Assembly (NCBI RefSeq): GCF_001429025.1
Contig: NZ_LMHT01000033.1
Span: forward strand, 15,626-79,625
Direction of reading: 5' to 3'
Source: Phenylobacterium sp. Root700
GTDB taxonomy: Bacteria; Pseudomonadota; Alphaproteobacteria; Caulobacterales; Caulobacteraceae
Length of the DNA stretch: 64,000 nucleotides
Made by a program: the position numbers and the translations under genes. Positions 29,955 through 60,528 of the stretch are shown here, one piece after another. Numbering within the stretch: position 1 is the first letter of the stretch; every line of letters starts with the position of its first letter. The notes below the pieces were generated by a model. The model searched no databases, was not told the DNA's origin, and was given only the letters and a program-made list of their open reading frames with translations.

Positions 29955-30572
29955 ATGAAGGTCAAATTCTTCTTCGATTTCGGTAGCCCGAACGCCTACA
30001 TGTGCCACCGCGTGATCCCCCAGATCGAGGACGCGACCGGCGTCCCTTTCGAGTACGTGCCGATCCTGCTGGGAGGCGTCTTCAAGCTCACCGGCAACCA
30101 GTCGCCCGCGACCGCCTTCGCCCATATCAAGAACAAGCCCGAATACGAACGGCTCGAGACCGACAGGTTCCTGCGGAGACACAAGCTCTCCGACTTCCGG
30201 TTCAATCCGCATTTCCCGGTGAACACGCTCCAGCTGATGCGGGGCGCGGTGGCGGCTCAGGAGGCCGGCGTGTTCGAGGCCTTCGTAAAGCAGGTCTATG
30301 ACGACATGTGGCTTCGCGGGCGAAGGATGGACGATCCGGAGGTCTATGCGGCCTCGCTCGTGGAGGCCGGCCTGCCGAAAGACGATATCCTGCGCCTGGC
30401 GCAAACTGACCCCGTGAAGTCGAGGCTCCTAGCCAACACTGAAGGCGCGGTGGACGCGGGAGTGTTTGGGAGCCCTTCGTTCCTCGTGGGCAAGGAGCTG
30501 TTCTTCGGCAAGGACCGGCTCCGGGACGTCGAGGAAGAGATCACCGCCGCCGCAGCGACGCAGCCAGCCTAA
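29955..30572 (+). CDS. 2-hydroxychromene-2-carboxylate isomerase / GST-kappa-like DsbA-fold protein
   Basis: A 205-residue thioredoxin-fold protein with a helical insert. FFFDFGSPNAY at the start carries Ser11 at the glutathione-activating position of GST-kappa and NahD; GSPSFLVGKELFFGKDRL is the cis-Pro segment near the end. NahD isomerises 2-hydroxychromene-2-carboxylate with glutathione, but no naphthalene genes are present, so the substrate is probably different. It is close in sequence to 57126-57755, and a third such domain is fused to a regulator at 47796. It leads an operon with two small genes. Confidence 0.9.
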   Translation: MKVKFFFDFGSPNAYMCHRVIPQIEDATGVPFEYVPILLGGVFKLTGNQSPATAFAHIKNKPEYERLETDRFLRRHKLSDFRFNPHFPVNTLQLMRGAVAAQEAGVFEAFVKQVYDDMWLRGRRMDDPEVYAASLVEAGLPKDDILRLAQTDPVKSRLLANTEGAVDAGVFGSPSFLVGKELFFGKDRLRDVEEEITAAAATQPA

Positions 30573-47558: not shown

Positions 47559-47594
47559 CCCATCCCATACCGGCATATGCCGGTATGGGATGGG
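47559..47594. terminator. Perfect 36-base palindrome after the NmrA-like gene
   Basis: Two 18-base arms meet at CATATG without any loop base: the left arm is CCCATCCCATACCGGCAT and the right arm is its exact complement. It lies 56 bases after a stop and 71 bases before the next start. It can fold as a terminator hairpin but has no U-run; a protein-binding site is the alternative. Confidence 0.55.
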
Positions 47595-47664: not shown

Positions 47665-47799
47665 ATGGCCGAACTGAAAGATCACCCGATCGTTGAACGC
47701 ATCCGGCTGAAGGCGGCGGGCCCGCCGCCGCTCAGCATCGAAGCCCTCAAAGCGCTGACCCTGGAGCACGGCGCCAAGCCATGGAGTCGCGCGCCATGA
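47665..47799 (+). CDS. 44-residue protein coupled to the HxlR fusion
   Basis: A short frame with a good AGGAG site before its ATG. Its stop overlaps the start of the next gene in ATGA. The product is amphipathic (HPIVERIRLKAAGPPPLSIE, then LKALTLEHGAK). It may be a small partner, a leader that sets translation of the fusion, or the truncated N-terminus of a larger protein. No family recognised. Confidence 0.55.
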   Translation: MAELKDHPIVERIRLKAAGPPPLSIEALKALTLEHGAKPWSRAP

Positions 47800-48884
47800 C
47801 CTCGAAACCCTTGACCGAGATGCGTCGCTCGATCGCCGGAGCGCTGGAAGTGGTCGGCGACAGGTGGACCCTCCTGCTTGTCCACGACATGGCGCTCGGC
47901 GTTCGCCGCTTTGACGACCTGCGCGCCAACATGCGCATTCCGCGGAGCACCTTGGCCGCGCGCCTGAAGAACCTTGAGACCCGGGGACTGCTCGAGCGGG
48001 TGCGCTATCAGACGCGGCCGCCTCGCGACGAGTATCGGCTGACGGAGATGGGGCGCGACGTCTGGATGGTCACCGCCGCCCTGCGCGAGTGGGGCGACCG
48101 ATGGAACATCTCCGGCGATGGCGCGACTGTCGTGGAGCTGGTGGATCGCGACACCGGCCAAGAGATCCGTCTGGGTCTCGTAGATCCCAAGACCGGTCAC
48201 TCAACGCCGCCGGATCGTGTTGCTCACCGCCCCGGGGCCGGCGCCGACGACGCCGTCCGCGCCCTGCTCCAAACCTTGGACAAAGGGAGCCGACGCGTGG
48301 CTGAACGCCTGGAGTTCTATTTCGATTTCCAAAGCCCCTACAGCTACCTGGCGCATAGCCAGCTTGAGGGCCTCGGGACGCCAGTTCAGCTCGTGCCGAT
48401 TTCGGTCGGTCCGTTGATGAAGCTGGTCAACAACACGCCGACCACGATGACCTGCTCAGCCAAGTTCGCCTATGCGAGCACGGATTTGGGGCGCTGGGCG
48501 GCGCGCTATGGGGTTCGGGTGATCCCCCCTGACCGAGACCTGCTGGACGGCGACCTCTTGCTTCGCCTGGTGACGGCGACCACCGATGAGGCGTTCCGCG
48601 CCAAGGCCACCGATGCGATCTTCAAGGCTGTTTGGGGCGGGCAGGGCGACGCTTCGCCTAAAGGCCTTGAGCAACTGCTGGCGGCCCGCGGGCTGCCGGC
48701 GGCCGAGCTGATCGCGGCGGCGAACCAGGAGGCGACCGTGGCGGCGTTGTCAGCGGCGACCGAAACGGCTGCACGCCGCGGCGTCTTCGGCGCCCCCACA
48801 TTCTTCGTGGGGAACGAGATGTTCTTCGGCAACGACCGGCTGGATTTCGTCCGCGAATGCTTAGCCCTCCATGAGGGCGTCTGA
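47796..48884 (+). CDS. HxlR regulator fused to a GST-kappa/HCCA-isomerase-like domain
   Basis: A 362-residue two-domain protein. Residues 5-105 are a full HxlR winged helix (ALEVVGDRWTLLLVHDMALG; RRFDDLRANMRIPRSTLAAR; DEYRLTEMGRDVW). After a linker of about 60 residues, residues 170-360 form a DsbA-fold GST-kappa/NahD-like domain with FYFDFQSPYSYLAH (Ser180) and GAPTFFVGNEMFFGNDRL. The frame is continuous. An in-frame GTG at 48297 with GGGAG upstream lies exactly before the second domain, so the isomerase part might also be made alone. The enzyme-like domain could be the sensor for a pathway compound. Confidence 0.88.
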   Translation: MTSKPLTEMRRSIAGALEVVGDRWTLLLVHDMALGVRRFDDLRANMRIPRSTLAARLKNLETRGLLERVRYQTRPPRDEYRLTEMGRDVWMVTAALREWGDRWNISGDGATVVELVDRDTGQEIRLGLVDPKTGHSTPPDRVAHRPGAGADDAVRALLQTLDKGSRRVAERLEFYFDFQSPYSYLAHSQLEGLGTPVQLVPISVGPLMKLVNNTPTTMTCSAKFAYASTDLGRWAARYGVRVIPPDRDLLDGDLLLRLVTATTDEAFRAKATDAIFKAVWGGQGDASPKGLEQLLAARGLPAAELIAAANQEATVAALSAATETAARRGVFGAPTFFVGNEMFFGNDRLDFVRECLALHEGV

Positions 48885-53245: not shown

Positions 53246-54532
53246 TCAGGTCCGATAGGGAATGATGACCGGAAGGCTTTCGAAGCCGTGCACGAAGGAT
53301 GAGAAATTCAGCTCCGGTTCGGCGACAACCTTGATCTCCGGGAAGCGTTTGAGAATTTGCTCCCAGATGATCGTGAGCTGCATTTCGGCGACCCGATTGC
53401 CCACGCAACGGTGGATGCCAAAGCCGAAGGACATGTGCTGACGAGGCCGCTCGCGGTCGATGATGAATTCGTTCGGCCGGTCGATCATCTCTTCGTCGCG
53501 ATTGCCCGAGATGTACCACATGGCGACCCTGTCGCCCTTCTTGATGGTCTTGCCGCCGACTTCAACATCTCGCGTCGCTGTCCGCGCCATATGGGCCAGC
53601 GGCGCCTGCCAGCGGATCGTTTCGGACACCATCGACAGGACGAGATCCGGATTGGCGCGCAGCTTGGCGTATTGGTCCGGGTTCCTGTTGAGTTCGAGGA
53701 CGCTGGAGGTAATCGTGTTTCGCGTCGTGTCGTTGCCCCCGACAATGAGCAGGATGACATTGCCCTGATAGGCTTCAACGGACATGTTTCGGGTGGCGGG
53801 ATTGTGCGCCAACATCGAGATCAGGTCATTGCGCGGCTCGTCATTGCGGCGCTGGTTCCAGAGCTCTTGGAAGGCGTCGAAACACTCAAACGTCTCCCTA
53901 CCCTTCTGCTCCCAGCTTTCAACAGGTCCGTAGCCGGGCAGGCTTGTCAGAATGTCGGACCAATGGGTGAGCTTGCGGCGCTGTTCGAACGGGAAGTCGA
54001 ACAGGGTGGCCAAGGTCATGGCCGTCAGCTCCTTGGACACGAGGTCCACCCAGTCGAACTCCGTGCCGATCGGCAGGGAGTCGAGGATTTGGCCGGCGCG
54101 CTCGCGCACTTGGCCGGCCATCGTTTGCAGGTTGGCGGGCGCCATGGTGGGCGTCACGGCTTTCCGCGCCGGGCCGTGATCGGGCTCGTCCATCGTAATG
54201 AAGCCGATATCGCCCTTGGGGCGCTTGCCCATCACCCTCGTGCGCTCCTCGATATCGGCGAGGGGCGTGATGATGATGCCCTCCGCGGAGGAGAACGCCT
54301 CGTGATTGGTGTCAACCGCCAGGATGTCGTTCCACTTGGTGATCGACCAGTAGGGCCCAAACTCGCTTTCGCGCGTGAAATGGACCGGATCTTCGCGGCG
54401 CAACCGTTCGAACACGGACCAGTGGGTGCCGTTTCTGAAGCGATCCATCTGCGCGGGATTCAGGTTCTCGAGCGGCGTGGCGGCGATCTCAGCGGCGGCG
54501 TCGGCCGCCTGCACTTTCAAGGCGATGTTCAT
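53246..54532 (-). CDS. Cytochrome P450, CYP153-like
   Basis: A 428-residue soluble P450. The oxygen-binding helix has GGNDTTRN, the ExxR helix is SETIRWQAP, and the heme loop FGFGIHRCVGNR supplies the Cys ligand. The C-terminal half is very close in style to CYP153 alkane terminal hydroxylases (ISGNRDEE, RPRQHMSFGFG). Such enzymes need a [2Fe-2S] ferredoxin and its reductase, present at 17232 and 22283. GGGAGG precedes the ATG at 54532. Likely reaction: hydroxylation of a saturated carbon. The exact subfamily and substrate need alignment. Confidence 0.93.
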   Translation of the reverse strand: MNIALKVQAADAAAEIAATPLENLNPAQMDRFRNGTHWSVFERLRREDPVHFTRESEFGPYWSITKWNDILAVDTNHEAFSSAEGIIITPLADIEERTRVMGKRPKGDIGFITMDEPDHGPARKAVTPTMAPANLQTMAGQVRERAGQILDSLPIGTEFDWVDLVSKELTAMTLATLFDFPFEQRRKLTHWSDILTSLPGYGPVESWEQKGRETFECFDAFQELWNQRRNDEPRNDLISMLAHNPATRNMSVEAYQGNVILLIVGGNDTTRNTITSSVLELNRNPDQYAKLRANPDLVLSMVSETIRWQAPLAHMARTATRDVEVGGKTIKKGDRVAMWYISGNRDEEMIDRPNEFIIDRERPRQHMSFGFGIHRCVGNRVAEMQLTIIWEQILKRFPEIKVVAEPELNFSSFVHGFESLPVIIPYRT

Positions 54533-54657
54533 CGTTACCTCCCAATTCGAGCGCGCTTTAGCGTCAAGAGCGACCAAATGGCGGGGCCGCTCATTGCGTG
54601 ACTTTTAGTGTCTGTCGCTCATGTTGCCTGCACCACCTCGAGAGTCAATCAACACAT

Positions 54658-57125: not shown

Positions 57126-57755
57126 TCAGGCCCGTTCGCGGACGCGTTGCTGACGAACAATCTCTTCCTCGACGTCGCGCAAGCGGTCCTTGCCGAAGAA
57201 CAGTTCCGCCCCGTTCACAAGGAAAGTCGGGCTGCCGAACGCGCCCTTGGCCACGGCCGCCTCGGTGTTGCCGATCAGCCTGCTCTTGACCTCGTCGGTC
57301 TGCATGAGCCGCAGCAACTCCTCGACCGGCAGGCCGGCCTCAGACCAGGCCGCGCGAAGGACCTCCGGGTCGTCCATCTTTCGGCCGCGCTCCCACATGT
57401 CTGCGTAAACGCTGTCGACATAGCTTTCGAACACCCCGGCCACCTGAGCGGCGATCGCGCCGCGCATGAGCTGCAGGGTGTTGACCGGGAAATGCGGATT
57501 GGAGCGGAATTGCGCGATGCCGTGCCGCTCCACAAACCGCCGCATCTCGAGGCCGTCGTAGGCCACCTTGTTCTTGATGCCGGCGAAGGCGGTGGCCGGC
57601 GACTGATTACCTGTCGCCTTAAAAATCCCACCCAAGAGCACGGGCACATACTCGAAGGTCGCGCCGGTCCGCGCCTCGATCTGCGGGATCACCCTGTGGC
57701 TAAGGTAGGCATTGGGGCTGCCGAAATCGAAATAGAATTCCACCGTCGTCATCAT
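57126..57755 (-). CDS. 2-hydroxychromene-2-carboxylate isomerase / GST-kappa-like protein, second copy
   Basis: A 209-residue DsbA-fold protein highly similar to 29955-30572: FYFDFGSPNAYLSHRVIPQI with Ser13, NPHFPVNTLQLMRGA, and GSPTFLVNGAELFFGKDRL. It is the first gene of the leftward operon with the Phe-type SDR and the thiolase. The start at 57755 has AAGGG upstream; the next codon is also ATG. A near-perfect operator palindrome lies 99 bases upstream. Glutathione-dependent isomerisation is the family precedent. Confidence 0.9.
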   Translation of the reverse strand: MMTTVEFYFDFGSPNAYLSHRVIPQIEARTGATFEYVPVLLGGIFKATGNQSPATAFAGIKNKVAYDGLEMRRFVERHGIAQFRSNPHFPVNTLQLMRGAIAAQVAGVFESYVDSVYADMWERGRKMDDPEVLRAAWSEAGLPVEELLRLMQTDEVKSRLIGNTEAAVAKGAFGSPTFLVNGAELFFGKDRLRDVEEEIVRQQRVRERA

Positions 57756-57853
57756 GTTCGCCCTTCTATCGCCGCGATCCGGAGATGATCGCGGTCTTGT
57801 CCCGGCCGCGCCGAACACCGGGTGTGATTACGCAGCGACGGCGCCAAAAGTCC

Positions 57854-59133: not shown

Positions 59134-60528
59134 CTAAATCGCGCTAACGACGCCAGGCAGCCCCAACAGGCCTTGCCGCGGTCCAGTTGCATAGGGCTCG
59201 AACTCGGCGACCTGCTCCTCCCCCCGCACGATATGTCCAAGCAGAGTTTGCCAAGCTTCCAAGGCTGCTCGCTTCGCCCGCGCATAAGAGTTGGCGTCGT
59301 AATGTAGGCTGGTCACCGCCGCCCCGCCGCCAGTGTCGAAAGCATGCCCCAAGACCTTGCTCCGGATGAGCGGCGAGATCTCCAGCCGTTCGCTGGTCAT
59401 GGCCGTCGCGCCGCTTCGCCTAAGGTCGTGCGGCGTGGCGTTCGTTATGCCGATGTTCTGGTTCAGAAGCCGCATGCCGTGGGAGACGCTATCGGCGCGC
59501 ATCGGTATCGACGGGTTGCGAGGGTTCGGGAATACGCAGTCGCTCTGGACGCCTTGGGTGTAGCTCGCCGCCTGACGGATCAGGCTGATGGCCCAACTGG
59601 ACAGCGGAACCAGATGAAGCCTCCCCCCCTTCATCCGCTCCGGCGGGATGAGCCAGACCCCCTGGGAAAGATCGAGCTCCGACCAGCGCATACCTACGAT
59701 CTCGCCCTTGCGCTGTAGGAGGAGGCTGCAGAGCTTCAGGACGATGGCCATTTGCGGCCCCATGAAGATGCGCTCTCCGGTCTTCGAGGCGAGCAATTCC
59801 TCCCGCTGCAGCGCTTCAAGCGCCGCCCAGAAGACGCGCCACTCGTCATCCTTGAGGGTCCGCAGCCGCGGCTTGATGGGCGCGATCCGACCGAAGCCCA
59901 TGCCCGGATTGTAGAGGATGATGTCGGGCTCGATCTCCTCGGCGATGGCGAAGGAGTAGGTCGCGCGGATCATCTGGTGCGCCTTGTTCGTCTGCGCGCC
60001 GATCCCGCTCATGAACATCTCCCGCAGCCGGGACTTCACCACGGCCCGGGTGATCTCCTTGGGCGGGAGCTTGCCCAGGTGAGGCTTGACATGCAGCCGA
60101 TAGACATTGCGCTCGTCATCCAGGCTGCGCTTGCGCTTCACCTTCCCCTTGGGCGTCCAGATACCTTTCTCGCAGGCGTCAAAGTAGGCCTGGGCGAGAT
60201 CGTCGAACGTCCCGATCGCCCGATCGCGCTCGCGCGATTTTGCGATCCGCTTTTCCGCAGCCGGATCGATACCGTCGTCGACAAGGGTCCGCAGTCTCCG
60301 GGCGCGCGTTCGCGCTTCAGCCAGCCCTAGGCTCGCCGAAAAGACGCCCATCGTGATACGGCATGGCTTGGACGCCAGGTTGCGGTAGCGAAAGGTCCAG
60401 ACCTTCCGTCCTCGGGGTGAAACCCCCAGTGAGAGGCCTTTGACCTCGTCGTCATAGTAGTCGACCTGCCGACCGTCGGCCGGTCCGGCGCTCTCGCAGA
60501 ATCGCGTGGTGAGCGTGAGATGGGGCAC
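59134..60528 (-). CDS. Tyrosine recombinase (P4-type integrase)
   Basis: A 464-residue integrase. The N-terminal part (VDYYDDEVKGLSLGVSPRGR; ARTRARRLRTLVDDGIDPAA) is the DUF4102 arm-binding domain of phage P4-type integrases. A core-binding domain follows, then the catalytic domain with LLLQRKGEIVGMRW (Arg), HDLRRSG (His, Arg), GHAF and a Tyr near SLHYDANSY. It begins 172 bases left of a tRNA 3' fragment, as expected for an element integrated at a tRNA gene. All catalytic residues appear intact, so the element may be mobile. No excisionase was seen. Confidence 0.93.
   Translation of the reverse strand: MPHLTLTTRFCESAGPADGRQVDYYDDEVKGLSLGVSPRGRKVWTFRYRNLASKPCRITMGVFSASLGLAEARTRARRLRTLVDDGIDPAAEKRIAKSRERDRAIGTFDDLAQAYFDACEKGIWTPKGKVKRKRSLDDERNVYRLHVKPHLGKLPPKEITRAVVKSRLREMFMSGIGAQTNKAHQMIRATYSFAIAEEIEPDIILYNPGMGFGRIAPIKPRLRTLKDDEWRVFWAALEALQREELLASKTGERIFMGPQMAIVLKLCSLLLQRKGEIVGMRWSELDLSQGVWLIPPERMKGGRLHLVPLSSWAISLIRQAASYTQGVQSDCVFPNPRNPSIPMRADSVSHGMRLLNQNIGITNATPHDLRRSGATAMTSERLEISPLIRSKVLGHAFDTGGGAAVTSLHYDANSYARAKRAALEAWQTLLGHIVRGEEQVAEFEPYATGPRQGLLGLPGVVSAI

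Follow-up and report, generated by a model that had tools for sequence, protein, structure and literature searches.

A lineage-specific in-frame fusion of an HxlR-type regulator and a GST-kappa-like enzyme in Phenylobacterium sp. Root700, probably derived from a translationally coupled gene pair

The fused frame and its surroundings

We analysed a 64,000-nucleotide stretch (hereafter, the window) of Phenylobacterium sp. Root700, whose genome is available as a 4.58-Mb draft in 35 contigs estimated to be 99.94% complete. On the forward strand, an open frame runs from position 47796 (or 47781) to a stop codon at 48882–48884 and encodes a 362-aa product when counted from the ATG at 47796, which is the HxlR start by homology to relatives (Table 1). 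Residues 19–103 match the HxlR domain (Pfam PF01638, E = 2.1e-23; 82.4 bits against a Pfam cut-off of 20.8), and residues 172–356 match the DSBA domain (PF01323, E = 2.3e-34). A previous sequence-only reading of this DNA had described one continuous frame joining a winged helix to a DsbA-fold domain, which the open frame and both Pfam matches bear out. It was also right that DSBA-type proteins are encoded twice as free genes nearby (29955–30572 on the forward strand and 57126–57818 on the reverse strand). Its statement that no characterised regulator of this shape was known agrees with our literature search, in which no relevant paper was found on an HxlR/DSBA fusion or on HxlR combined with an HCCA isomerase.

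Table 1. Features of the fused frame and its upstream region (positions are those of the window)
Feature	Position	Strand	Remarks
Perfect 36-bp palindrome	47559..47594		CCCATCCCATACCGGCATATGCCGGTATGGGATGGG; 18-bp arms, no mismatch; separates the NmrA-like gene from the stub
44-codon ORF, apparent N-terminal stub of a 4Fe-4S/SCP2-domain gene	47665..47799	+	TGA overlaps the HxlR ATG (ATGA)
HxlR/DUF24 winged-helix half with a tail of ~55 residues typical of the subfamily	47796..48296	+	Fusion residues 1–167
Arg11 codon	47826..47828	+	Replaces the HxlR/DUF24 sensor Cys (Cys in 45/46 aligned relatives)
Shine-Dalgarno sequence of the former enzyme gene	48282..48289	+	AAAGGGAG; holds the extra base (AAA versus AA in L029)
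GST-kappa/HCCA-isomerase-like half (DSBA fold)	48297..48884	+	Fusion residues 168–362; PF01323
GTGG, former ATGA/GTGA start-stop overlap	48297..48300	+	Start kept as GTG, stop lost
Catalytic Ser	48333..48335	+	Residue 13 (enzyme half) or 180 (fusion); invariant in 56 homologues; aligned with 2IMD

The fusion is preceded by a 44-residue ORF that had no Pfam or NCBIfam match. In a second genome of the genus (L043), the gene at 159–1487, directly 5' of an HxlR homologue, codes for a protein of 442 aa that carries 4Fe-4S and SCP2 domains, and residues 4–37 of the ORF align with residues 3–39 of this protein (LKDHPIVERIR...PLSIEALKALTLEHGA versus LEDHPTVRRAR...PLSAEWLKALARKHGA). The alignment scored 78, compared to a maximum of 46 in 2000 shuffles, with one relative compared; alignments with the more distant Fe-S/SCP2 members from Nostoc and Priestia were insignificant. 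Because its score exceeded every shuffle, we read the ORF as the 5' end of an Fe-S/SCP2 gene left after a deletion reaching to the HxlR start. Within the genus, the Fe-S/SCP2 protein was found in a single genome, and none of the genomes sampled from the order had it; the ORF itself had no match in plasmids and gave only noise elsewhere in its own genome. By sequence, it therefore looks like a truncated remnant, which may still serve translational coupling. The earlier reading had proposed a 44-residue gene coupled to the regulator by ATGA: the overlap is real, and what overlaps is a stub resembling an Fe-S/SCP2 N-terminus and not an independent gene. Copies of the 442-aa protein, ~52% identical, are carried on Nostoc and Priestia plasmids.

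Several other features of the window and genome were recorded in passing. At 53246–54577 on the reverse strand lies a cytochrome P450 gene that matches the solanimycin P450 SolI model with 629.8 bits, below the cut-off of 850, and is neighboured by thiolase, enoyl-CoA hydratase and SDR genes. A weak match to an integrase-domain model at 59134–60528 (reverse strand) is a possible mobile-element edge. Elsewhere in the genome, paired HxlR domains occur in the same frame at C4:61391-62254, C4:67448-68230 and C35:434168-435136 as apparent tandem HxlR-HxlR arrangements; their open frames span 316 to 451 aa, one with a TGA inside the match.

Two-gene relatives and the junction

Using six peptide patterns, a scan of 84,980 species genomes yielded three further relatives matching both halves of the fusion: a Phenylobacterium MAG (L029; 75% in the best segment), a Caulobacteraceae MAG (L030; 62%) and a Brucella sp. 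(L033; 58%). The Root700 genome also contains a paralogous pair on contig C31 that is two genes (HxlR 57% and DSBA 47% identical). Adding the pairs recovered in searches of the genus, order and class gave 12 distinct relatives of the pair; every one, including the two closest and the own-genome paralogue, is two-gene, and none is fused. Their junctions comprise eight ATGA overlaps, one GTGA overlap, one 1-base overlap and two short gaps (for example, gcATGAgc in L029, ccGTGAgc in L030 and gacTGATGtct in L033), and in most cases a short-chain dehydrogenase (SDR) gene follows directly 3' of the pair. Phylogenies of both halves placed the window beside L029, with L030 next, which indicates that the two halves share one history and were inherited as a pair; support for the grouping with L029 was moderate (94/73 and 87/89 in the trees of the two halves).

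Searches for a second fused copy were negative at every level sampled, namely genus (101 genomes), order (398), class (385) and phylum (398); these samples overlap and comprise ~1,200 different genomes. The 741 matching plasmid records held none either, and no other lineage with this architecture was found in these samples or records. The fusion is thus seen in one genome. Two further candidates were discarded. L009/L027 had been flagged as fused by a script, but the junction there is an ATGA at which the HxlR frame stops, and these are therefore two genes. In L062, which matches at 40% across the two domains, the genes are set apart by a TAG and a short gap.

Comparison of the junctions points to how the two frames came to be joined. 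Between the conserved ADDxVRALL codons and the enzyme's start codon, the window has 54 bases versus 53 in both L029 and L030. The junction reads GACAAAGGGAGCCGACGC GTGG in the window and AACAAGGGAGCTGGCGC ATGA in the two-gene counterpart, with the extra base falling in AAAGGG where L029 has AAGGG. One additional base brings the ancestral HxlR frame into phase with the enzyme, and it is apparently what caused the joining. The position of the old start signal is unchanged: the internal GTG at 48297 stands 7 nt after AAAGGGAG, and the L030 enzyme also starts with a GTG at the equal position. The sequence-only reading had noted an internal GTG with its own ribosome site ahead of the second domain, and we can now recognise it as the old start of the enzyme gene. 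Since this ribosome site and GTG are retained and L030 has a GTG there too, the enzyme half is likely still to be translated on its own from 48297.

A false A in AAAGGG could in principle have joined two separate genes by sequencing or assembly error, and the facts that the frames are joined by a single base within a short run of A and G, that every relative is two-gene and that the fusion occurs in a single genome are all what such an error would produce. We nonetheless regard an error as improbable. When the extra base was removed in silico, the HxlR frame continued out of phase for 39 codons within the enzyme gene, ending at residue 206. The old stop is also gone (TGA to TGG), a change that an indel error leaves unexplained; deleting the base therefore restores no gene pair, which speaks against a sequencing error. 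Runs of three bases are not error-prone on common sequencing platforms, and the near-complete assembly in few contigs also argues against this explanation.

Our preferred reading, which we hold to be probable, is of a lineage-specific event in which a translationally coupled pair was fused in frame, the enzyme being kept and the regulator either re-purposed or decaying. In the sequence of events that we propose, one base would have been inserted just 5' of the enzyme's ribosome site, bringing the two genes into a common frame; the old TGA would thereby have ceased to be read and would have drifted to TGG; and the enzyme would now be produced in two forms, within the fusion and free from the GTG at 48297.

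Fates of the two halves and of their upstream control

The enzyme half shows the hallmarks of the GST-kappa/HCCA isomerase family, namely a DSBA fold with Ser in place of CxxC, and retains Ser13, Gly165, Pro167, Gly178 and Arg181. None of the columns invariant across 56 homologues has changed, the cis-Pro loop, the NDR motif and Ser13 among them, and the half departs at only 1 of 41 near-invariant columns. We take Ser13 to be equivalent to Ser11 of NahD, the catalytic residue of HCCA isomerase. Loss of the Ser and of binding-site residues across homologues had been raised by the earlier reading as a point that would count against it; in the enzyme half, these residues are kept. A profile search matched the HCCA isomerase structures PDB 2IMD/2IMF (E = 9.6e-43). 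Modelled alone from the GTG, the half forms a self-contained fold (pLDDT 95) with TM scores of 0.86 to HCCA isomerase 2IMD and 0.84 to GST kappa. Its terminal branch is 0.29 in the window versus 0.14 in L029, and dN/dS relative to L029 is ~0.22. The enzyme half is still under strong constraint and, by homology, is probably active as a glutathione-dependent enzyme.

The regulator half is 60% identical to the HxlR proteins of L029 and L030, and its fold was modelled with high confidence, matching PA1607, PA1374, HypR, YodB and HxlR. Of 50 columns without variation in 20 other members, 9 differ in the window, compared to 0–5 for any other member. In addition to the Arg at position 11, Arg30 (Arg in 45 of 46 relatives) is replaced by His, and the conserved Ser45, Thr46 and Lys85 are lost; Ser45 and Thr46 adjoin the modelled recognition helix, so that the recognition-helix region is altered. 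The terminal branch of this half is ~three times longer in the window (0.60) than in L029 (0.18). Its 501 bases contain no stop or frameshift, codon-position GC is coding-like and dN/dS relative to L029 is ~0.39; an open frame of this length with dN/dS below 1 makes it likely that some function is kept. Judged by its substitution pattern, the regulator half is relaxed or redirected, but not free of selection, and not a pseudogene.

In B. subtilis, Cys11 of HxlR senses formaldehyde (PMC7835342), and the N-terminal Cys of HxlR, YodB, HypR and CatR senses formaldehyde, quinones or oxidants (PMC7835342, PMC6943732, PMC10458429). With Arg11 in place of this Cys, the window encodes an HxlR-fold protein but no Cys-based HxlR sensor, and we infer from this substitution and from the missing subfamily operator that it no longer acts as an electrophile-sensing auto-regulator, as its relatives appear to do. 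The half would then be in decay, or it would serve as a carrier of the enzyme through re-targeted DNA binding or dimerisation.

Control of the locus also appears to differ from that of the relatives. In most of them, an inverted repeat, ACTCT-N7-AGAGT, lies 33–44 bases 5' of the HxlR start, and it is exact at nine loci and has one or two mismatches at six more. Carriers include L002, L003, L004 (own genome), L029, L030, L035, L040, L042 and L044, among others; at L043 the repeat stands before the Fe-S gene instead of HxlR, and L009, L010 and L033 are without it. The longer form ACTCT-N7-AGAGTTA has three occurrences across the 4.58 Mb of the genome, one in front of each of the three HxlR paralogues; a reversed control sequence had no match there. 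Based on its placement, we consider this repeat operator-like, a predicted operator marking the HxlR subfamily with the extended tail. It was not found in the 64-kb window, allowing up to 1 mismatch. We rejected a degenerate copy just 5' of the stub (2 mismatches, spacer of 8), which is at about chance expectation in 400 bases. With the operator gone, the sensor Cys gone and a different gene order downstream, control in the window would have been broken or rewired.

Given family knowledge, operator position and gene content, HxlR, enzyme and SDR in the relatives probably form a self-regulated, Cys-based electrophile-response module. The three-gene arrangement was seen at L004:1495-3268, L029:4001-5780 and L033:4001-5780, and at L042, L044 and L045. 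At L003, on the same contig as the window and ~5 kb outside it, HxlR is joined by ATGA straight to an SDR gene, without the enzyme.

The HxlR half might, alternatively, be a decaying passenger whose frame survives by chance, leaving only the enzyme translated from the GTG at 48297 to matter. Its faster evolution, the loss of its most conserved residues and of the operator, the stub of another broken gene adjoining it and the ability of the enzyme half to fold by itself are all consistent with this account. Set against them are the uninterrupted 501 bases, a dN/dS near 0.39, the coding-like codon-position GC and a confidently modelled HxlR fold, and on balance we think that pure decay is rather unlikely, though it deserves consideration.

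The perfect palindrome upstream bears on a further possibility. Even when 3 mismatches are allowed, its 26-bp core is single-copy in the genome. The palindrome lies 70 bp before the stub and right behind an NmrA-like gene that was present in no other genome of the genus at E ≤ 1e-60. The hairpin predicted for it is strong (z = -4.15) and lacks a proper T run. Given this position and this structure, the palindrome could be a terminator of the upstream gene or a new operator, the latter being less likely. An operator here would suit a true sensor-regulator, in which the GST-kappa half took over from the Cys and gates HxlR DNA binding in response to glutathione or a pathway compound. The frame has stayed open through the loss of both the sensor Cys and the old operator, the recognition-helix region has changed, the enzyme half retains its family-invariant residues and a perfect, genomically unique palindrome stands upstream, as that account would lead one to expect. 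However, no second example was found, the palindrome is terminator-like in its placement after the NmrA-like gene, and its distance is unlike that of the subfamily operators, which stand ~33–44 bp before the gene. The enzyme half may sense a pathway compound, but we consider the full sensor-regulator scheme very unlikely. If true, it would represent a natural swap of a cysteine switch for a glutathione-binding enzyme domain, following a one-base insertion.

The combination of an intact-looking enzyme half with a regulator that has lost its sensor Cys leads us back to the fusion of a coupled pair: an ordinary pair of genes has been rearranged locally, and no new regulator class has arisen. That the ORF represents an established sensor-regulator architecture was not borne out, since it is a singleton that a change of one base made out of a two-gene operon.

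Comparison with known systems

As a case of bacterial protein fusion, the locus is clear, with unfused relatives, the extra base, a leftover start and ribosome site, and a readable fate for each half. It also points to a conserved module of HxlR, GST-kappa-like enzyme and SDR with an operator, in which the regulator's target and signal are testable in the relatives and for which the Cys-less fusion offers a natural comparison.

The nearest counterparts are the two-gene HxlR and DSBA operons (most with SDR) of Caulobacterales and Brucella (L004, L029, L030 and L033, among others), which are alike in domains, gene order, ribosome site and phylogeny. These operons have an ATGA/GTGA overlap, the sensor Cys and, in most, ACTCT-N7-AGAGT, whereas the window is fused and has no sensor Cys, no operator and no such SDR gene downstream. 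With HxlR, YodB, HypR and CatR of B. subtilis, the regulator half has the winged-helix fold and the family model in common, but these proteins sense via an N-terminal Cys where the window has Arg. The enzyme half shares its fold, catalytic Ser, and FGxP and NDR motifs with HCCA isomerase NahD (2IMD/2IME/2IMF) and GST kappa (1YZX, 3RPN); it is only 29% identical to the former and 24% to the latter and, unlike either, is fused to a winged helix. For the joining itself, the closest parallel is EcoKI, in which removal of the frame break at the hsdM/hsdS overlap gave a working fusion (PMC3510504). In both cases, a single long protein results once the frame break between overlapping genes is lost; the HsdM-HsdS fusion, however, was engineered in the laboratory, and both of its partners are subunits of one enzyme.
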